Assembly (NCBI RefSeq): GCF_946479975.1
Contig: NZ_CAMLIX010000248.1
Coordinates: 1-6,880, forward strand
Direction: 5' to 3'
Source: an uncultured Flavobacterium sp.
GTDB lineage: Bacteria > Bacteroidota > Bacteroidia > Flavobacteriales > Flavobacteriaceae
Length of the DNA: 6,880 bases
Part shown: positions 1 to 6,880 of the stretch, one piece after another
Layout: each line of letters starts with the position of its first letter
How positions within the stretch are numbered: the first letter of the stretch is position 1
Program-made: the position numbers and the translations under genes
Notes under the pieces: generated by a model
Databases searched by the model: none
The model's input: only the letters and a program-made list of their open reading frames with translations
What the model was told of the DNA's origin: nothing

Positions 1-1104
1 TTAGACTCTGCAGAATTTTTTTATAAGAAAGCCATATCATACTCAGAACAATTTGAAGACAATAAAATCAATTCTAAATTAAGCCTTGGAAATATTTATT
101 TGTTTCAGAAAGATTTTAGTAACGCAGAAAAGATTTATTATGATATCTCTTTTTATGCAAAGCAAACCAATAATGATTATCTCTTTCAAATTGCCAACTT
201 TAATTTAGGAGATCTTTATTTTACACTTCAAAAATACGATAGAGCGCTTCTTTGCTTAAAAAAGGTAGATTCTATTAGTACCAAAAACAAAACAATTGAT
301 AACAGTTATTTTAAGTCCAACTATATTCAGGCTAAAATATATAGTATAAAAAATGAGCCCGAGCTGGCCTATAAGCATTCCAAATTATATTTAGATTCAT
401 ATGAAAAGTATGAAGGAAAAATGAGAGAGGAAGCATTAGAAGTAAATTACAAATTAGGTACAGCCAACCTAAGTGAAGAAATGCTTGTGCTTCAGGAAAA
501 GTATAAATATGAAGTTTTTTGGAACAAAGCACTAAAAGTATTTTACGTAATTCTTGTTGTCGGAATTGTATTTTTCTTGATTAAAAATATTCGGGATAAA
601 AATAAGGCTCAAAAGAAAATGAATGCTTTAATAGAAGAGTTTAAAGCCAATCTGGAGAAAAAAGAAATTGAAAAAGCGGCCATTATAGATCCTGTTTTTG
701 AAGTCGCAGAAGAAGAAGAAATACAGCTCAAGAAAGAAAATGCGAATCTGAGTATAGATGAAGCAAAAGAAAATAAAATTGTAGAAAAATTGCTGGCTCT
801 TGAAGAGAAATTAGAATATCTCAACGCAGACTTTACACTTTCATATGTTGCTAAAAAGATAAAAACCAATACCACCTATTTGTCGTATGTAGTTAATAAG
901 AGATTTGGAAAATCTTTTGGGGAATATTCTAACGAACTGAAAATAAATTATGTTATTAATCAAATGATTACGAATCATTTATATAGAAAATATTCTACTC
1001 AGGCTATTGCAGAAAGTGTTGGGTTTAAAAATGCGGTCTCTTTTGCAAAATCATTTCGCAAAAGAACTGGAGTTTCGCCAGCTCAATTTGCGAATAATAT
1101 ATAA
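1..1104 (+). CDS. TPR-repeat, membrane-anchored AraC-family transcriptional regulator (5' end cut by window)
   Basis: The reading frame is open from base 1 without a start, so the N-terminus lies outside; 367 residues are visible. Residues 1 to about 150 are helical TPR-like repeats, with motifs such as LSLGNIYLFQKDFSNAEKIY and NFNLGDLYFTLQKYDRALLC. A single hydrophobic segment follows at about residues 178-196 (VFYVILVVGIVFFLI), then a charged, coiled-coil-like linker rich in Lys and Glu. The last 105 residues or so form an AraC-type double helix-turn-helix: FTLSYVAKKIKTNTTYLSYV is the first unit, and the C-terminal signature AIAESVGFKNAVSFAKSFRK then GVSPAQF is the second. This architecture is common in Flavobacteriia, where a periplasmic or cytoplasmic TPR sensor is joined through one membrane helix to the DNA-binding domain. 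The gene converges on the small-peptide array with a 12-base gap and no visible terminator. Control of the neighbouring peptide genes is possible but not shown by the sequence. Confidence 0.93.
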   Translation, partial: LDSAEFFYKKAISYSEQFEDNKINSKLSLGNIYLFQKDFSNAEKIYYDISFYAKQTNNDYLFQIANFNLGDLYFTLQKYDRALLCLKKVDSISTKNKTIDNSYFKSNYIQAKIYSIKNEPELAYKHSKLYLDSYEKYEGKMREEALEVNYKLGTANLSEEMLVLQEKYKYEVFWNKALKVFYVILVVGIVFFLIKNIRDKNKAQKKMNALIEEFKANLEKKEIEKAAIIDPVFEVAEEEEIQLKKENANLSIDEAKENKIVEKLLALEEKLEYLNADFTLSYVAKKIKTNTTYLSYVVNKRFGKSFGEYSNELKINYVINQMITNHLYRKYSTQAIAESVGFKNAVSFAKSFRKRTGVSPAQFANNI

Positions 1105-1116
1105 GGAGAATTACGA

Positions 1117-1260
1117 TTAATTATTTCCACCACCTGCACTTTTTTTAGGATCAACAGGATCAACTGGTGGCGTTGTATCTTCTCCGCCTTTGATTGTTTG
1201 TTGTTGTTTTCTAGAAATTGTCTCTAATTCGAAATCTTTGAATGTGAATATAGTTTTCAT
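1117..1260 (-). CDS. Double-glycine leader peptide, cysteine-free family, copy 1 (47 aa)
   Basis: This small gene of 47 codons plus TAA belongs to a four-member tandem family. The leader MKTIFTFKDFELETISRKQQ then QTIKGG (26 residues) ends in a GG site of the kind cut by C39 peptidases. The 21-residue core begins EDTTPPVDPVDP and ends KKSAGGGNN. It has no Cys, Ser is present once, and it is rich in Pro, Asp and Gly. It is the most distal copy if the array is transcribed leftwards, and its start lacks the AAAGTCATG context shared by the other three. Its core differs from copies 2 and 3 by a repeated VDP motif in place of EETVDP. Being real is supported by the conservation of length, leader and core across four copies. 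The function is unknown to me; a secreted or modified natural-product precursor is the likeliest reading. Confidence 0.82.
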   Translation of the reverse strand: MKTIFTFKDFELETISRKQQQTIKGGEDTTPPVDPVDPKKSAGGGNN

Positions 1261-1306
1261 AGTTGTAAGTTTTTAAATTATTTAGATTAGCTTCTTTTAA
1301 TTGGAA

Positions 1307-1444
1307 TTAATTATTTCCTCCGCCTGCACTTTTCTTAGGATCGACAGTCTCTTCAGGTGGTGTGTCTGTATCGCCGCCTTTAATTGTTTTTAATTCTTTA
1401 TTAGAAATGGTATCTATTTCGAAATCTTTGAATGTATTTTTCAT
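1307..1444 (-). CDS. Double-glycine leader peptide, cysteine-free family, copy 2 (45 aa)
   Basis: This gene has 45 codons plus TAA. The leader MKNTFKDFEIDTISNKELKT then IKGG (24 residues, the shortest of the four) precedes a 21-residue core that begins DTDTPPEETVDP and ends KKSAGGGNN. At protein level the core differs from copy 3 by one residue (Asp for Asn at core position 3), and most other DNA differences in the core are silent third-position changes, a sign of purifying selection. The start codon is preceded by AAAAAATTAAAGTCATG, a context shared with copies 3 and 4. The gap to the next start is 46 bases and conserved in sequence, so the copies are probably co-transcribed. No cysteine is present, so disulfides and lanthionines are ruled out for this product. 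Confidence 0.83.
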   Translation of the reverse strand: MKNTFKDFEIDTISNKELKTIKGGDTDTPPEETVDPKKSAGGGNN

Positions 1445-1496
1445 GACTTTAATTTTTTAAATTATTTGGATAAGCTTCTTTTAATTTTAATTGGAA

Positions 1497-1637
1497 CTAG
1501 TTATTTCCTCCGCCTGCACTTTTCTTAGGATCAACGGTCTCTTCTGGTGGTGTGTTTGTATCGCCGCCTTTAATAGTTTGTAATTCTTTACTAGAAATGA
1601 TATCTATTTGGAAATCTGAGAATGTTTTAGTTTTCAT
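1497..1637 (-). CDS. Double-glycine leader peptide, cysteine-free family, copy 3 (46 aa)
   Basis: This gene has 46 codons and ends in TAG, unlike the TAA of the other copies. The leader MKTKTFSDFQIDIISSKELQ then TIKGG (25 residues) precedes a 21-residue core beginning DTNTPPEETVDP and ending KKSAGGGNN. The leader has diverged more from copy 2 than the core has, with FSDFQIDIISS against FKDFEIDTISN. This is the reverse of the usual precursor pattern, where leaders are conserved and cores vary, and it suggests the exact core is what is selected. It is separated by 52 bases from copy 2 downstream and 49 bases from copy 4 upstream. Confidence 0.83.
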   Translation of the reverse strand: MKTKTFSDFQIDIISSKELQTIKGGDTNTPPEETVDPKKSAGGGNN

Positions 1638-1686
1638 GACTTTAAATTTTTAAGTTATTAGGATTACTTTTTATTTTTAAATAGAA

Positions 1687-1836
1687 TTAATTGTTTCCTC
1701 CGCCTGGATTTTTTTTAGGATCTACTTCTTCTGTAGGTGGCGGCGTTGTGTCTAGACCTCCTTTGATTGTTTTTAATTCTTGATTAGAAATGGTGTCTAA
1801 TTCGAAATCTGTGAATGTGAATTTTTTAGTTTTCAT
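1687..1836 (-). CDS. Double-glycine leader peptide, cysteine-free family, copy 4 (49 aa)
   Basis: This is the promoter-proximal and most divergent copy, with 49 codons plus TAA. The leader MKTKKFTFTDFELDTISNQE then LKTIKGG has 27 residues. The 22-residue core begins LDTTPPPTEEVDP and ends KKNPGGGNN, with an extra Pro and with NP where the others have SA. The shared frame TPP...VDPKK..GGGNN is intact. It starts with the same AAAGTCATG context as copies 2 and 3. Its upstream side opens onto the 619-base gene-free region, where the promoter for the array should lie. Confidence 0.82.
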   Translation of the reverse strand: MKTKKFTFTDFELDTISNQELKTIKGGLDTTPPPTEEVDPKKNPGGGNN

Positions 1837-2293
1837 GACTTTAATTTTTATGTTTTGATATTAATTTTTATTTTCTAAGTTTTTAAAATCGTATGTATTT
1901 AACACGATAAATCTTTCAAGTATTTCTTAATACAATTATTTTCTGAGCGATAAATACACCGCAAATTTTGGATTACAGTAAACTTTTTTAGTTTTTTTTT
2001 TTGAAAAAAGACAGTAAAAAGTAACTTTATTTGTAAGATTAATAGCTGTTTTTTAAATAGCTTTTTTATGTCTTTTTAAGAGGTGTCCCGATCAGAGGTA
2101 GGGGAAATTTTAGGATATTTTTTCCTGATTTAGACCTAATTTTTTATGATTTTTTTATTCAAAATCATATTGTTTTTATGCCCTATTTTTCATGTTTTGA
2201 GATGTTTAAATTATTGCTATTCCAAAACTAGAGAAAAACTACAGCCGTTAATCGAAAATTAGCTTTCTGAATTTTTTACACAAAAATAATACG

Positions 2294-2320
2294 TATAATA
2301 ATCTGTTTTACAGTATTATA
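2294..2320. promoter_or_regulatory. Inverted repeat TATAATA / TATTATA, possible operator
   Basis: TATAATA (2294-2300) is the reverse complement of TATTATA (2314-2320). Inside it, CTGT (2303-2306) pairs with ACAG (2310-2313) around a TTT loop, leaving a two-base bulge. It lies about 135 bases before the VKOR-fusion start, a plausible operator position. Such AT-only arms arise easily by chance in this composition, so the functional claim is weak. Confidence 0.3.
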
Positions 2321-2336
2321 TGTGTTTAAGTATGCT

Positions 2337-2382
2337 TGGTATAATTTATAAATTGTATGTGGTATAATTAATAAAATGTATA
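2337..2382. repeat. Two tandem 23-base repeats upstream of the VKOR operon
   Basis: Unit 1 (2337-2359) begins TGGTATAATTTATAAA and unit 2 (2360-2382) begins TGGTATAATTAATAAA. They match at 20 of 23 positions by direct comparison. The pair lies 74 bases upstream of the VKOR-fusion ATG. A period of 23 bases is about two helical turns, which would put two copies of a site on the same face of the DNA. Each unit carries TATAATT, so the repeat could contain promoter elements or regulator sites. Confidence 0.5.
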
Positions 2383-2455
2383 TACACATGCGATTTTTAT
2401 CAATAAAAACCCCAATCTTTGCAGTGTAATTATGATTTAAAATCAATCGAAACTG

Positions 2456-4012
2456 ATGTTAAAACTGGTCCAAAAATTTCTACAAATCAACAAGTACTCA
2501 GACATAAAAAATGAGTTCAAGGATCTGTTTTTGTCTCATCCAAATTATCCGAGCTTATTTGCTATTACAGATTCGTTCGATTTGCTTTCTGTTGAGAACG
2601 CAGCGGTAAGAGTTTCGAAAGAACAGATTGTAGATTTACCAGCAAATTTTTTGGCCTATTTTAAAGAAGAATTGACTTTGGTCGAAAAAATTAAAAATGG
2701 GGTTCGAATTTCAACATTGAAAAAAGGAAATCAAAAATTATCTTATGATAACTTTCTTCTAGATTGGAATGGCGTAATTGTCGCAATCGAACCAAACAAT
2801 GTAGTTGCAAGAGAGAACTTTAAAGTAGAGTACAATTGGTTAAAATATTTTCTGCCTTTGGTACTTGTTACAGGACTATCTTTTTTCTACAATGGATTTA
2901 ATTTATTCAGCACTGCTTTTTTAGTGACTTCAATATTAGGTTTAATTGTAAGCATATTTATTGTACAGCAAAAATGGGGTGTTAAAAATACAGTGATTTC
3001 AAAATTTTGTAATTTAAGTTCTAACTCTTCCTGTCATTCTGTAATAAGTTTCAACGATGATATCGCCAATAGATGGTTAAGCTTTTCAGATCTGCCATTG
3101 CTTTTCTTCAGCTCAAGTATAATTGCAATTTTGATACAGCCATTAAGCTCAGCGATATTTGTTGGATTTTTAAGTTTATTGGCAATTCCAGTAGTAGTTT
3201 GTTCTATTTGGATTCAGAAATTTGAAATTCAAAAATGGTGCGTAATGTGTTTAGCAGTATCATTTATAATTTTAGTTCAAAGCATCGCATGGTTTTCATC
3301 AGATCTTTTCACTTTAAGTTTTAGTTTACAAAGCATTTTTCCATATGTGTTTTCTCTATTGCTTTTAATTCCGATTTGGGCAGCAGTGAAAGTGATGATC
3401 AAAAATCTGCTTGAAAATGAAAACTCATTAAAAGAGCTTAAAAAGTTTAAAAGAAATTATTCCCTGCTGAACTTCTTATCTAAAAAAGTAAAATATACAA
3501 AAGGATTTGAAGATTTAAGAGGATTGACTTTTGGAAACAAAAATGCAGCAGTAAAACTATCTATTATACTTAGTCCAAGCTGCGGACATTGCTACAAGAC
3601 ATTTCATGAAGCTTTTGATTTAGTGTTGAAATATCCAGATAAAATATTCTTGAACATTCTTTTTAATATTAATCCAGAAAATAACGATAACCCTTATAAA
3701 GCAGTTGTCGAAAGATTATTAACAATTAATAGAACAAATCCTGGGCAAACTGTTGAAGCAATTTCAGATTGGTACATTAAAAGAATGGCATATAAAAAAT
3801 GGCTTAAAAAATGGCATGTTGATTCTATCAGCATGATGATTAGCCAGGAAATTCAAAAACAATACGATTGGTGTTCAATGAATAACTTTAATTATACACC
3901 AATTAAAATTGTAAATGAGAGATTGTTTCCAAATGAATATGAACTAAACGAATTGAAATATTTCTTGAATGATTTTGTAGATGAAGTTCAAGTTTTAGAA
4001 AGAATAGCATAA
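2456..4012 (+). CDS. C39-like (degenerate) / VKOR / thioredoxin fusion membrane protein
   Basis: Residues 1 to about 120 resemble a C39 peptidase fold that has lost catalysis: the segment HPNYPSLFAITDSFDLL sits where C39 enzymes have their Cys, and DWNGVIVAIEPN where they have the His strand. Hydrophobic segments follow at about 131-148, 152-171, 211-228, 232-252, 262-281 and 293-315. The VKOR domain is identified by a loop Cys pair (C185, C193) and the CxxC C262-V-M-C265. VKOR proteins pass electrons from a thioredoxin-like partner to quinones, giving net disulfide formation outside the cytoplasm. The C-terminal domain (about 345-518) is thioredoxin-like, with C376-G-H-C379 and a Thr-Pro at 481-482 in cis-Pro position. 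Peptide genes with paired cysteines follow directly, 35 bases downstream, so the likely substrates are their cores. Six segments with a periplasmic thioredoxin domain would also put the N-terminal domain outside; the exact topology is uncertain. Confidence 0.9.
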   Translation: MLKLVQKFLQINKYSDIKNEFKDLFLSHPNYPSLFAITDSFDLLSVENAAVRVSKEQIVDLPANFLAYFKEELTLVEKIKNGVRISTLKKGNQKLSYDNFLLDWNGVIVAIEPNNVVARENFKVEYNWLKYFLPLVLVTGLSFFYNGFNLFSTAFLVTSILGLIVSIFIVQQKWGVKNTVISKFCNLSSNSSCHSVISFNDDIANRWLSFSDLPLLFFSSSIIAILIQPLSSAIFVGFLSLLAIPVVVCSIWIQKFEIQKWCVMCLAVSFIILVQSIAWFSSDLFTLSFSLQSIFPYVFSLLLLIPIWAAVKVMIKNLLENENSLKELKKFKRNYSLLNFLSKKVKYTKGFEDLRGLTFGNKNAAVKLSIILSPSCGHCYKTFHEAFDLVLKYPDKIFLNILFNINPENNDNPYKAVVERLLTINRTNPGQTVEAISDWYIKRMAYKKWLKKWHVDSISMMISQEIQKQYDWCSMNNFNYTPIKIVNERLFPNEYELNELKYFLNDFVDEVQVLERIA

Positions 4013-4047
4013 AACTAAAGAAATAGTAACCCCAAAATACCTGCGTT

Positions 4048-4230
4048 ATGTTAAAGAATATATTGAAATTGAAAGGTGCAGTAGAATTAACTGCAAATGA
4101 GCAAAAAACAATAAATGGAGGAAACGCTCCTATTTGTGAGGAAGGATTCAAGGCTAAACGATGTACAGAATTTGGAACGGTTCCGGGATATTGGAGCTGC
4201 GTACCAAATAGTTATGTTGGAAGCTGTTAA
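4048..4230 (+). CDS. Double-glycine leader peptide with four core cysteines (60 aa)
   Basis: The leader MLKNILKLKGAVELTANEQK then TINGG is 25 residues and ends in a typical double-glycine site. It aligns without gaps to the leaders of the next two peptides through ML at the start, the LT/IT..EQK block and the GG/GA end. The 35-residue core has cysteines at 30, 39, 51 and 60, giving Cx8C, x11, Cx8C; the last residue is Cys. The even number of cysteines and the VKOR-thioredoxin gene just upstream suggest two disulfides. The likely product is an exported disulfide-bonded peptide of bacteriocin or signalling type. The core sequence is not one I recognise. Translation is probably coupled loosely to the fusion gene, 35 bases upstream. 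Confidence 0.85.
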   Translation: MLKNILKLKGAVELTANEQKTINGGNAPICEEGFKAKRCTEFGTVPGYWSCVPNSYVGSC

Positions 4231-4243
4231 GACTAAAAACTAA

Positions 4244-4271
4244 AAACCTCAGATTTGAAAATTTGAGGTTT
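4244..4271. terminator. Hairpin after the first cysteine-rich peptide gene
   Basis: AAACCTC (4244-4250) pairs with GAGGTTT (4265-4271), and the stem can extend inwards with AT pairs and one G-U. There is no U run on the plus strand after the stem. On the minus strand the stem is followed by TTTTTAGTTTTTAG, so it looks more like a terminator there. On the plus strand it may act as an attenuator or mRNA-stabilising element. Confidence 0.5.
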
Positions 4272-4295
4272 ACCAAAAAACGTAAATAACCAATT

Positions 4296-4430
4296 ATGTT
4301 AGAAAAGATTTTAAAAAGTAAGGAAACTAAAAAGCTGACAAAAAAAGAGCAAAAGGACATTTTAGGTGCGGAGTATACTGCAGAACTAAATTGTGACAAA
4401 GCTGTTGCTGAAAAATATTATGCTTGCTAA
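4296..4430 (+). CDS. Short leader peptide with GA cleavage site and two core cysteines (44 aa)
   Basis: This ORF of 44 codons plus TAA is easily missed because of its length. The leader MLEKILKSKETKKLTKKEQK then DILGA is again exactly 25 residues and shares ML.KIL, LT.KEQK and the cleavage-site position with its neighbours, but ends GA in place of GG. GA is an accepted variant of the double-glycine site for C39 proteases. The 19-residue core is EYTAELNCDKAVAEKYYAC, with cysteines at 33 and 44, the latter C-terminal, allowing one disulfide over a ten-residue spacing. It lies 65 bases after the previous peptide and 62 before the next, between two hairpins. The leader alignment is the main argument that it is real. 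Confidence 0.8.
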   Translation: MLEKILKSKETKKLTKKEQKDILGAEYTAELNCDKAVAEKYYAC

Positions 4431-4444
4431 TTTTAATTTTTATC

Positions 4445-4476
4445 TAGTAACAGAGACATTATAAGCTCTGTTACTA
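4445..4476. other. Perfect 11-base-pair hairpin between second and third peptide genes
   Basis: TAGTAACAGAG (4445-4455) is the exact reverse complement of CTCTGTTACTA (4466-4476), with a ten-base loop. Neither strand has a T run after the stem, so it is not a classical intrinsic terminator. It sits 16 bases before the next start codon. A role in mRNA processing or stability, or in lowering readthrough to the third peptide, is possible. Confidence 0.6.
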
Positions 4477-4492
4477 TAAAAATTGTATTGAT

Positions 4493-4684
4493 ATGCTGAA
4501 GAAACTTTTAAATCTTAATGATGCTCGTACTATAACTAGAAATGAGCAGAAAGCAATGACAGGAGGAATTCCTAAATGCTGGATTTATGCTTTAGAAGCG
4601 GGATGCATAATAATACCATCAGGCGAAAGTTGTCCAATAAATACAACATCTGGTATTTGTAATACAAGTCGTCTTTGTTGTTGA
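4493..4684 (+). CDS. Double-glycine leader peptide with six core cysteines (63 aa)
   Basis: The leader MLKKLLNLNDARTITRNEQK then AMTGG has 25 residues and ends in GG, aligned position by position with the two upstream peptides. The 38-residue core has cysteines at 29, 38, 47, 56, 62 and 63: three consecutive Cx8C spacings, then x5 and a terminal CC. The core is otherwise small and neutral, with hydrophobic WIYAL and III runs. Six cysteines could give three disulfides, fitting the disulfide machinery on both sides of it. Ser and Thr are also present, so lanthionine chemistry is conceivable, but no synthetase is visible. The stop is followed by a gene-free stretch and a strong terminator at 4914. 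Confidence 0.85.
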   Translation: MLKKLLNLNDARTITRNEQKAMTGGIPKCWIYALEAGCIIIPSGESCPINTTSGICNTSRLCC

Positions 4685-4750
4685 TTTTTAACTTTTTTAA
4701 AAGTAATACGATATAGCCTTATTTAGAATTTAGTCATGTTTTTTTTGAAT

Positions 4751-4870
4751 GTATGGGCGCTCGATCGTGGAACATTGAGCATTTTCTCGGTATTGATGAT
4801 TGATGCTGGGATTCTTAGGAGTTGGCCGCTGTGTTTAATTTTAATTGGTTAGGGTAAAACCGCGGCCATG
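4751..4870. other. GC-richer patch with inverted repeats, possible structured RNA or element remnant
   Basis: By hand count this patch is about 46% GC, clearly above its surroundings. TGGCCGC (4823-4829) and GCGGCCA (4862-4868) are exact reverse complements. GGTT (4847-4850) and AACC (4858-4861) pair inside them, with the AACC arm directly abutting GCGGCCA. A further stem, GCTCGAT (4754-4760) with ATTGAGC (4769-4775), forms with one G-U pair. It could be a small RNA or a structured 3' UTR ending at the 4914 terminator, or a relic of an inserted element. I do not recognise a family. Confidence 0.4.
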
Positions 4871-4913
4871 TCCTAAAGAAATTGTGTTACTGTTAATTTG
4901 TTTATAAATACCC

Positions 4914-4949
4914 AAAACAGAGAAGATTAATGTCTTCTCTGTTTTTTTT
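4914..4949 (+). terminator. Strong intrinsic terminator
   Basis: AAAACAGAGAAGA (4914-4926) pairs perfectly with TCTTCTCTGTTTT (4933-4945) around a six-base loop, and the T run continues to 4949. The 13-base-pair stem plus U tract is the clearest terminator in the window. It closes the VKOR-peptide transcript, separating it from the thioredoxin and PCAT genes. The A run on its left flank could also let it work on the minus strand. Confidence 0.85.
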
Positions 4950-5092
4950 ATAGAATGTTTTTATTTTAATATCTCACAGAAATAAATCTCAGACCTAAAT
5001 ATTTTGTAATATTAATCCTAATTTTTACGATATTGCAGTTTCTATTGTGAATTTAAATGTAATATTTTGTGAAATTATTTAATTGTCAAAAG

Positions 5093-6208
5093 ATGTTAAA
5101 AAAAACAGTTCTAATTACCTTATTAATTTGTAGTTCGATTTATGCTCAAGAATCGAAACTTCTTCATGGAAAAGTTGTTGCAAAAGAAAAAATTAATGAT
5201 TCAATTGCATTTATTCCAGGATTATTTTTTAATGAAAAGTCGTATAACATTGAAGTATTAAAGGCTAAAATTACTCAAAATGAGTTTTATTTGAAATTTA
5301 GCCCAGATTATCCTCAAATGTATGTAGTGGCTCTAGATAGTGACAGAGAAACTGGTAAAATTAGGCTTGATTGTTTCTTTGTGGATAATGCTACGACCGA
5401 AATATCTTTTGATTCTGACTTGAGAATAAAGAAATCGGACGGTGTAACTAATAAAGAGTTTTTAAATCGATTCATCCCTTATGTTTTTAAAGACAAAAAG
5501 GCAAATTTTCATTTTTACAATTTTGATCAAAGCTTAGATGAACGTCTTTATAATTATATTAAACAATATCCAGATTCGTATGTGGCGCTATGGTTTTTAA
5601 TAGGAAGATTTAACAGCGAAGGATATACAGAACTTTATGAAAAAAGTTTACAGTCTTTTTCTCAAAAAATAAAAAATGAAATTCTTTGGAAAAAAATAAT
5701 TGAGGAGTTTTCAAACATAACAATAAAAAGAAACTTTAAATTTCCTGAAATTGCCTTGAAAAATACTGAATTAAAGCCTGAAACGCTTGAAATACCCGAA
5801 GCAGAATATACTTTAATAGATTTTTGGTTTAGCCGTTGTCGTCCTTGCCTGGAAGAAATGCCAATGTGGATCGATTTGTATCAAAGATATAATTCGAGTG
5901 GATTGAATATAATAGGAATTTCAACTGATAAAACTGAAAATGTAGAACCATATTGGCAGAAAAGGATAATTGAAAAGAAAATACCTTGGAAGAATTATTT
6001 GGATGAAAATGCGGTTTATGCCTCTAAAGAAAAAATATTCTCATTCCCTACCAATTATTTGCTTAACAACAAAGGAGAAGTTATTCAAAAAAACATTCGA
6101 CCTGAACAGCTGGAAAAACTAATGATTGATACTTACAAGATTAAAAAGAACTTTGATATTTATGATAGACAAATTATGGTTCCAATTTCAGGATTCCAGA
6201 AAAACTAA
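5093..6208 (+). CDS. Secreted TlpA/ResA-type thioredoxin-like oxidoreductase
   Basis: An in-frame GTG lies at 5069, but the ATG at 5093 gives a standard signal peptide (MLKKTVLITLLICSSIYAQ) with cleavage likely after YA, so 371 residues are called. There is no lipobox, because the residue before Cys is Ile. Residues about 20-215 are a beta-rich then helical N-terminal region resembling the DUF4369-type domain found before TlpA-like domains in Bacteroidota. The thioredoxin-like domain starts near residue 220 and has the active site C249-R-P-C252 in DFWFSRCRPCLEEMP and the cis-Pro motif FPTNYLL with Pro319. In this family such proteins reduce or isomerise disulfides in the periplasm. Beside cysteine-rich peptides it could correct wrong disulfides or reduce the thioredoxin domain of the fusion protein; that role is inferred. 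It has its own transcript start, judging by the terminator at 4914, and the PCAT follows 179 bases later. Confidence 0.9.
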   Translation: MLKKTVLITLLICSSIYAQESKLLHGKVVAKEKINDSIAFIPGLFFNEKSYNIEVLKAKITQNEFYLKFSPDYPQMYVVALDSDRETGKIRLDCFFVDNATTEISFDSDLRIKKSDGVTNKEFLNRFIPYVFKDKKANFHFYNFDQSLDERLYNYIKQYPDSYVALWFLIGRFNSEGYTELYEKSLQSFSQKIKNEILWKKIIEEFSNITIKRNFKFPEIALKNTELKPETLEIPEAEYTLIDFWFSRCRPCLEEMPMWIDLYQRYNSSGLNIIGISTDKTENVEPYWQKRIIEKKIPWKNYLDENAVYASKEKIFSFPTNYLLNNKGEVIQKNIRPEQLEKLMIDTYKIKKNFDIYDRQIMVPISGFQKN

Positions 6209-6387
6209 TAGTAAAATAGATAAGAACTGATTTATATTTAATTACAAGAAACAATTCGAAAGAAAAATGTATGATTTATTGTGGTTTGAGAAAAACATTC
6301 AAATCAAAAAGTTTTTAAAGTGCCCGATAAATATTACATTAGCAGAACCAAGAATTTACATTCCCAGTAAACAAAAACAAATAAGAA

Positions 6388-6880
6388 TTGAAAAAATTCG
6401 CGCATTACAGACAAGCCGATCATAAAGATTGTGGCCCGACGTGTTTAAAAATTATAGCTAAACATTACGGTAAAACAATCAATATTCAGGAGTTAAGAGA
6501 TTTTGCTGAAACAACTCGTGAAGGAAGTAATCTGCTTTTTTTAAGTGATGCTGCAGAAAAAATTGGCTTTAGAACTTTAGGCGTAAAATTATCTGTACAA
6601 AGAATCGAGGAGGCGCCTCTGCCTTGTATTCTCCATTGGAACAAAGATCATTATGTGGTTCTTTATAAAATAAAAAAAGGGAAATATTATATTTCAGATC
6701 CTGCTTTCGGACTTTTAGAATACAATAAAGAAGAATTTGTCAAATTTTGGATTGGAAACAATGCCAGTGACACCACAAAAGAAGGTATTGCATTATTGAT
6801 AGAAGCAACTCCTAACTTTTTTGAATCTGATTTCGATAAAGAAGAAAATTCAGGTTTAGGATTTAGATTTCTGTTTAAGT
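6388..6880 (+). CDS. C39 peptidase-containing ABC transporter (PCAT), N-terminal part
   Basis: The frame stays open to the window end, with 164 residues visible of a family that usually runs to about 700-750. The start is TTG at 6388: an in-frame TAA lies at 6382-6384, and MKKFAHYRQADHKDCGPTCL matches the usual beginning of these proteins. The C39 domain has its full catalytic set: Q9 (oxyanion hole), C15 in DCG, H88 in DHYVV and D104 in SDPA. C39 domains cut leaders after GG or GA on the cytoplasmic side while the transporter exports the core. After about residue 140 the chain reaches FFESDFDKEENSGLGFRF, a linker leading into the membrane domain. The three peptides upstream have matching GG/GA leaders and are its obvious cargo; the minus-strand peptides may be too. 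A 52-codon ORF in another frame overlaps its start. The TTG start and weak leader may keep expression low. Confidence 0.93.
   Translation, partial: MKKFAHYRQADHKDCGPTCLKIIAKHYGKTINIQELRDFAETTREGSNLLFLSDAAEKIGFRTLGVKLSVQRIEEAPLPCILHWNKDHYVVLYKIKKGKYYISDPAFGLLEYNKEEFVKFWIGNNASDTTKEGIALLIEATPNFFESDFDKEENSGLGFRFLFK

Follow-up and report, generated by a model that had tools for sequence, protein, structure and literature searches.

The closest described counterparts of the locus reported here are peptidase-containing ATP-binding cassette (ABC) transporters (PCATs, or AMS exporters) such as LahT, ComA and PCAT1 and those of class II bacteriocins and class II microcins. In these systems a C39 peptidase domain is fused to an ABC exporter, an HlyD-type adaptor is present, and the precursors carry leaders ending in GG or GA, with hydrophobic residues at positions -12 and -4 and Glu at -8. 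The PCAT1 channel can hold small folded proteins. Thiol oxidoreductases, namely BdbB (sublancin) and PedC (pediocin), are encoded beside GG-leader peptides and a PCAT in Gram-positive bacteriocin clusters. The same types of exporter, adaptor and leader recur at a locus of an uncultured Flavobacterium sp., of which we analyzed 6,880 nucleotides (assembly GCF_946479975.1, contig NZ_CAMLIX010000248.1, positions 1 to 6,880 of the forward strand), hereafter the window. Unlike those exporter systems, it encodes several cysteine (Cys)-rich cores, and a further C39 domain, catalytically dead, belongs to a distinct redox enzyme, a membrane protein in which a C39-like domain is joined to a vitamin K epoxide reductase (VKOR) core and a DsbA-like thioredoxin domain. 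BdbB and PedC are not known to be quinone-linked VKORs or to have a leader-binding domain, both of which are proposed for this fusion. With moderate confidence we propose, from sequence and structural modelling, that the locus makes and exports small disulfide-rich peptides, which would be oxidized in the cytoplasm by the leader-binding fusion before export by the PCAT.

The components of the fusion have relatives elsewhere. The C39-like domain (CLD) of HlyB-type proteins is fused to an ABC transporter, and here to a VKOR oxidase. The Synechococcus-type VKORC1/thioredoxin protein (matched as 4nv6 and 3kp9) has the same loop Cys pair, CXXC motif and thioredoxin-fold partner; the present fusion differs from it in an extra N-terminal helix, the C39-like domain, a reversed charge pattern, a predicted opposite orientation and a partner closest to ScsC/DsbA. 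Hibender's 2017 study, by its title, reportedly concerns VKOR-promoted disulfides in two compartments of Aeropyrum pernix and would be a precedent for two orientations; those VKORs are archaeal and are not known to be leader-guided or tied to an exporter.

A first-pass annotation of the window had listed a VKOR-thioredoxin fusion, three GG/GA-leader peptides with 4, 2 and 6 core cysteines, a secreted CRPC thioredoxin and a PCAT whose C39 site is intact, and all of these were recovered from open reading frames (ORFs) and profile scans (Table 1). New here are the dead C39 fold on the fusion, the extra helix before the VKOR core and the reversed charge pattern. The fusion is 92% identical to a Flavobacterium phragmitis protein with the database name 'vitamin K epoxide reductase family protein'. 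Its profile scores were 33.1 bits for PF07884 (cutoff 27.5), 21.3 for PF03412 (cutoff 22) and 17.7 for Thioredoxin_4 (cutoff 23.2). An AlphaFold2 model built with 72 sequences had a mean pLDDT (predicted local distance difference test) of 82 and replaced a 28-sequence model in which residues 7-50 lay below 50. The N-terminal domain has the C39 fold, and the first residue of the protein falls one after the position of the catalytic Cys. The His and Asp positions are occupied by other residues; the domain does not qualify as an active Peptidase C39 and is a catalytically dead C39 domain. This domain, mentioned only in passing in the first-pass annotation, is predicted to bind the precursor leader and is probably central to substrate recognition by the enzyme.

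The PF07884 match, the loop Cys pair and the CXXC motif identify the central part as a VKOR. Its four cysteines are invariant in 35 diverse sequences and 97-99% conserved in 74 aligned ones, and conservation extends to all six redox cysteines of the fusion. Searched alone with phmmer, the VKOR core retrieved no solved structure up to an E-value of 5. Variants of the protein were also seen. A 343-residue frame at L198:3119-4027 (G004:C48:214091-215068) has a C39-like and a thioredoxin-like part, apparently without the VKOR core, and lies near a full fusion paralogue and a PCAT. Three Flavobacterium loci (L010, L017 and L047) hold a second, divergent VKOR fusion match, with 24-54% identity to the fusion of L001.

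The neighbourhood of the fusion was surveyed in two sets: an orthologous one, the best 80 of 171 relatives in a scan of genome contigs (L001-L080), all from Flavobacterium, Flavobacteriaceae bacterium or [Flexibacter]; and a divergent one of 73 chosen matches, some being second loci of one genome. Among the orthologous loci a PCAT was present in 76, the other four (L046, L068, L069 and L070) being cut by a contig end, and an HlyD-type adaptor followed it in 72; the remaining eight are cut within the PCAT or ahead of it. One or more Cys-type precursors followed the fusion in 79 of the 80, the exception (L069) again being cut by the contig end. The window copy of the PCAT has an intact catalytic Cys, His and Asp (DCGPTC, DHYVV and SDP in the translation) and is cut by the end of the window, with the ABC membrane and ATPase domains outside it; the orthologue at L001:12553-14745 is full-length, with C39, ABC_membrane and ABC_tran domains, and the adaptor lies directly after it (L001:14748-16040). 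In the fetched stretches of the divergent loci, a PCAT was found in 53 of 73, and 60 had one or more GG precursors with at least two cysteines on the same strand; 42 loci had both, and two (L157 and L162) neither. The fusion, the PCAT, the HlyD-type adaptor and the GG precursors co-occur beyond chance. The survey thus bears out the earlier claim that PCAT export and disulfide-rich cores are linked in a dedicated system that is conserved.

Of the genomes sampled, the fusion profile matched 40 of 299 in the family (with the central genome, G001, included) and 41-45 of 395 in the phylum, a count that includes G001 and close Flavobacterium-like orthologues; four of the 45 phylum matches (G344, G505, G539 and G619) are weak and partial and probably represent C39 domains of other proteins. 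No relative was found among viral contigs. PCAT-type C39 domains occurred anywhere in the genome in 38 of 39 fusion-bearing and 11 of 40 fusion-less family genomes (Fisher 2e-11), the latter becoming 12 of 40 if a weak hit in G020 is included. As a contrast we took 20 PCATs with no fusion in the stretch, 15 from fusion-less and five from fusion-bearing genomes. By hand count at E <=0.05, six of these loci (L205, L208, L209, L213, L216 and L221) gave 11 GG precursors, of which ten had no or one Cys, several being hydrophobic; the only one with at least two (L216) lies beside a 252-residue C39 frame. The GG of the L208 precursor lies past the end of the profile. Left out were L210 (E 0.2, Cys-free) and L211 and two other L216 frames, which lack GG at the cleavage position. 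For the divergent fusion loci the search threshold was E 0.2 and the profile had been retrained on hits from these loci, so that thresholds differ between the sets, and the Fisher test on precursor cores counts related cores as independent. By eye, the fusion-less PCAT loci L208 and L215 seem to contain lanthipeptide- and graspetide (ATP-grasp)-type enzymes instead.

Leader profiles identified 224 Cys-type precursors in the 80 Flavobacterium loci, all on the strand of the fusion, with core Cys counts of 0 (1 precursor), 1 (2), 2 (57), 3 (1), 4 (84) and 6 (79). The odd cores come from a leader cut at the wrong place (L012) and from a shortened peptide shared by two strains (L016 and L019), and the zero-Cys core (L027) is an eroded copy. 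The divergent loci gave 157 same-strand GG precursors as against two on the other strand, and reversed decoys gave one raw match versus 215 (several starts per gene, and the profile was retrained on the same loci). All 157 cores hold 2-12 cysteines, the number being even in 141. Pooled, 378 of 381 cores have at least two, and cysteine makes up 12.7% of the cores versus 0.8% of the background. The 381 cores form 142 clusters, and in 128 of these the modal Cys count is even (p 2e-24 versus one half), so even parity through shared descent alone was rejected. We also rejected a leader search biased toward Cys, because it was trained on leaders only and also returns Cys-free peptides, both in the contrast loci and among the type-B peptides described below. 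The largest arrays comprise 19 precursors within about 9 kb (L173) and 17 within about 6 kb (L174); these are GG peptides, mostly with 4-8 cysteines, each array around one fusion and one PCAT.

The families of the three window precursors occur in 42, 27 and 62 of the 80 loci, with ratios of nonsynonymous to synonymous polymorphism (pN/pS; 26-63 sequences per ORF family) of 0.34, 0.25 and 0.25, respectively. They evolve under constraint, beyond chance. The third, with its six cysteines invariant in 20 aligned sequences, is kept in most Flavobacterium loci, as might be expected of a signal or of a weapon that is widely retained. When used as a query against 5.8 billion predicted proteins it had two matches, one being the window's own; although 62 of the 80 loci encode this peptide, most copies therefore seem unannotated.

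The leaders have L/I at -12, E at -8 and I/V/M at -4, and C39 domains read leader positions close to these (PMC6363468). Cysteine occurs once in 3475 leader residues of the divergent loci and five times in 4467 of the Flavobacterium loci, versus a background of 0.8%; this near-absence fits oxidation with the leader still attached. The first-pass annotation had described all leaders as Cys-free, which holds in the window; contrary to the general rule, the 6-Cys precursor of four species (L009, L020, L021 and L022) has one leader Cys (GAQC).

On which side of the membrane the cores would be oxidized depends on the topology of the fusion. The extra helix (TM0) is a sixth transmembrane (TM) helix, ahead of the VKOR core, with a mean Kyte-Doolittle hydrophobicity of 1.96 and a minimum of 1.13 across 67 fusions, namely that of the window and those of 66 of the 73 divergent loci (seven below 480 residues were dropped). 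With an even number of helices the C39-like and DsbA-like domains lie on the same side. On the Cys face, Lys plus Arg residues average 3.3 ahead of TM0, 4.1 for the Cys loop, 1.7 within the six residues surrounding the start of CXXC and 5.8 past TM5; on the other face the averages are 0.2, 0.04 and 0.4, in much shorter loops. As unfused controls we used 34 loci (L223-L256), the best-scoring VKOR matches, some of them near-identical, with frames chosen by the VKOR profile; L242 and L256 (C39-like hit) and L246 (no aligned CXXC) were set aside. With the two ends left out, the Cys side had the higher Lys/Arg density in all 67 fusions, versus two of 31 unfused Bacteroidota VKORs. Of these two, L250 is a frame of G541 without the CLD, and the same gene matches the fusion profile. 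The fusions thus lack the pattern of a classical periplasm-facing VKOR (positive loops 2-3 and 4-5, no extra N-terminal TM helix). The solved cyanobacterial chain 4nv6 has the positive residues KRWR, in the alignment, between its second and third helices, in a loop that is cytoplasmic.

By the positive-inside rule, positively charged loops are cytoplasmic; the Cys side of the fusions is therefore predicted to be cytoplasmic, and the unfused VKORs seem to be of the classical type. The size of the N-terminal domain and its lack of a signal peptide are in line with this. Most likely, then, the leader-binding domain, the VKOR cysteines and the DsbA-like domain share one membrane face, predicted to be the cytoplasmic one, which conflicts with the order of export followed by oxidation implied in the first-pass annotation. 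Oxidation after export would require either that TM0 does not span the membrane or that an N-terminal domain of about 110 residues is translocated without a signal sequence, and it has to face the reversal of the charge pattern in every fusion analyzed. The VKOR and DsbA-like domains would then be periplasmic, acting on cores as they leave the PCAT, and the C39-like domain would only tether the enzyme to the transporter or its substrate. Classical VKOR-thioredoxin fusions do have periplasmic or lumenal active sites, and a secreted thioredoxin is present in some loci as well. Tethering of substrates to exporters is a function of HlyB-type C39-like domains (PMC6363468). On balance we consider this course unlikely. 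The secreted thioredoxin itself had been counted as one of two dedicated redox proteins, a description the survey does not uphold: its relatives occur in only four of the 80 orthologous loci (L017, L029, L036 and L070), and it is thus optional, and in six of the 73 divergent loci at >60 bits.

A second alternative is that the fusion catalyses disulfide formation for the cell in general and lies beside a peptide exporter by chance. DsbB was unmatched in all 24 fusion-bearing genomes tested, so the fusion could be the main oxidase there. A general need for such an enzyme is not evident, however, since VKOR was unmatched in 25 of 25 fusion-less family genomes and DsbB in the 20 of them tested (0 of 44 genomes in all); no general quinone-linked oxidase was seen in the genomes tested. 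Given also that the fusion carries a C39-type domain and co-occurs with a PCAT and Cys-rich precursors even in divergent loci, we regard such a general role as very improbable.

Four Cys-free GG peptides (type B) lie on the minus strand between the regulator and the fusion (window positions 1117-1836), outside the range covered by the first-pass annotation. There are 246 relatives, spread over 79 of the 80 loci and always encoded on the other strand from the fusion, seven with one core Cys. The arrays contain 1-7 peptides upstream of and divergent from the fusion, some copies being identical, and the cores are short, Cys-poor and proline/glycine-rich (DGxPPxDPxKxxGGNGN). Two of the three type-B peptides scanned matched TIGR04149 below its cutoff, and the third was unmatched (Table 1). 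As the NCBIfam name of TIGR04149 refers to rSAM (radical S-adenosylmethionine)-modified peptides, these leaders could speak for another modification, in which the core cysteines would serve thioether rings or metal binding and the fusion would be supporting or reducing. The window proteins scanned gave no match to a radical-SAM, lanthionine or ATP-grasp enzyme family; together with the mostly even Cys parity and the conservation of the six redox cysteines of the fusion, this makes such a role for the cysteines highly doubtful.

We thus favour oxidation in the cytoplasm before export. It rests on the domain make-up, the lost catalytic residues, the conserved redox cysteines, the co-occurrence, the mostly even Cys-rich cores, the extra helix and the reversed charge, from which we infer leader binding, the direction of electron flow, the cytoplasmic site of oxidation and the order of the steps. 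The precursor leader, about 25 residues with a GG or GA end, would dock on the dead C39 domain of the fusion, and the DsbA-like domain would oxidize the core cysteines with the leader still attached. The VKOR core would re-oxidize the DsbA-like domain, passing the electrons to a membrane quinone. The oxidized precursor would then pass to the PCAT encoded nearby, the active C39 domain of which would cleave at GG, and the folded core would be exported via the HlyD-type adaptor and a putative outer-membrane channel.

Several observations weigh against this proposal. The bacterial cytoplasm is normally reducing. The topology rests on charge bias and helix count, and three of the 31 unfused frames show a hydrophobic stretch upstream of TM1 as strong as that of the weakest fusion. 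Leaders are compositionally biased anyway, which weakens the argument from their scarcity of Cys, and position -7 is mostly Gln, versus Leu in LahT and ComA. An even Cys number had been claimed for every core; this stands in the window, but 16 of the 157 divergent-locus cores are odd. A fusion and PCAT without Cys-containing peptides had been named as a finding that would contradict the first interpretation; none was seen in the 80 Flavobacterium loci (79 with peptides, one cut), whereas 11 of the 73 divergent loci have a PCAT and no detected Cys precursor, and 18 show the reverse. The contrast set is small, its 11 precursors coming from six of 20 loci while 14 gave none. Finally, GG peptides without Cys are also encoded in Flavobacterium loci, so oxidation cannot be required for all cargo.

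The remaining features of the window are listed in Table 1. Of the 80 orthologous loci, 75 encode the AraC/tetratricopeptide repeat (TPR) regulator, and the remaining five (L009, L022, L061, L066 and L070) hold <1.4 kb upstream of the fusion. Short hairpins were seen by eye after precursors 1 and 2 (4244-4272 and 4445-4480) and are absent from the terminator-scan output. An Rfam scan of the window gave no match at the gathering score. Sigma-70 promoter matches (33 versus 34.6 in shuffles) and matches to the element TANNTTTG (6 versus 12.7) were not in excess in the window.

Table 1. Features of the 6,880-nucleotide window (HTH, helix-turn-helix; aa, amino acids)
Feature	Position	Strand	Remarks
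AraC-type HTH regulator with TPR repeats	1..1104	+	PF12833 49.2 bits, TPR_8 29.3 bits; 5' end outside window
Type-B Cys-free GG-leader peptide	1117..1260	-	ORF; MKTIFTFKDFELETISRKQQQTIKGG/EDTTPP...
Type-B Cys-free GG-leader peptide	1307..1444	-	TIGR01847 (bacteriocin signal) 17.1 bits (cutoff 15.7); TIGR04149 19.7 bits (cutoff 25)
Type-B Cys-free GG-leader peptide	1497..1637	-	ORF
Type-B Cys-free GG-leader peptide	1687..1836	-	TIGR04149 22.4 bits (cutoff 25)
Membrane fusion of 518 aa (C39-like/VKOR/DsbA-like), proposed to be a leader-guided disulfide synthase	2456..4012	+	
C39-like domain of fusion, residues 1-114	2456..2797	+	Without catalytic Cys, His, Asp
TM0, extra transmembrane helix, residues 127-145	2834..2890	+	Outside VKOR core
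VKOR core, residues 150-312	2903..3391	+	Loop Cys185/Cys193; CXXC Cys262/Cys265
DsbA/ScsC-like thioredoxin domain, residues 344-511	3485..3988	+	SPSC(376)GHC(379); Pro482 in TP motif
Precursor 1	4048..4230	+	25-aa leader ending GG; 35-aa core, 4 Cys
Precursor 2	4296..4430	+	25-aa leader ending GA; 19-aa core, 2 Cys
Precursor 3	4493..4684	+	25-aa leader ending GG; 38-aa core, 6 Cys
Terminator-like hairpin and T tail after precursor 3	4914..4945	+	14-pair stem; consensus match only
TlpA/ResA-like thioredoxin, CRPC; optional accessory	5093..6208	+	PF13905 47.1 bits; signal peptide by eye
PCAT: C39 domain and start of ABC exporter	6388..6880	+	TTG start; PF03412 123.6 bits; 3' end outside window

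With a GG leader and a PCAT the locus falls, by its genes only, among class II bacteriocin/microcin systems. No immunity gene was recognised by eye at the locus, and no search aimed at immunity genes was made. Glycocins with three disulfides are described in PMC12457901. In a literature search, no title or abstract start among the matches listed describes a VKOR/C39-like fusion with PCAT peptides; coverage of subscription papers and preprints was partial, and an earlier description is possible. The terms 'vitamin k' and 'vkor' occur 0 times each in the accessible parts of PMC10352776 and PMC8939145.

Across the Bacteroidota sampled, the evidence leaves evenly poised the broader suggestion of a class of ribosomal peptides whose disulfides would be installed in the cytoplasm, before export, by an orientation-reversed, leader-guided VKOR/DsbA fusion. 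On that reading the fusion would fill the place of the radical-SAM, lanthionine or ATP-grasp enzymes of other peptide clusters. If the proposal is correct, disulfides would be formed in a normally reducing cytoplasm by gripping the leader of the substrate, and the enzyme could give a tool for the cytoplasmic production of disulfide-rich peptides. It would also open a seemingly mostly unannotated set of peptides to activity screening, and one enzyme family would explain many different disulfide-rich mini-proteins of these Bacteroidota.

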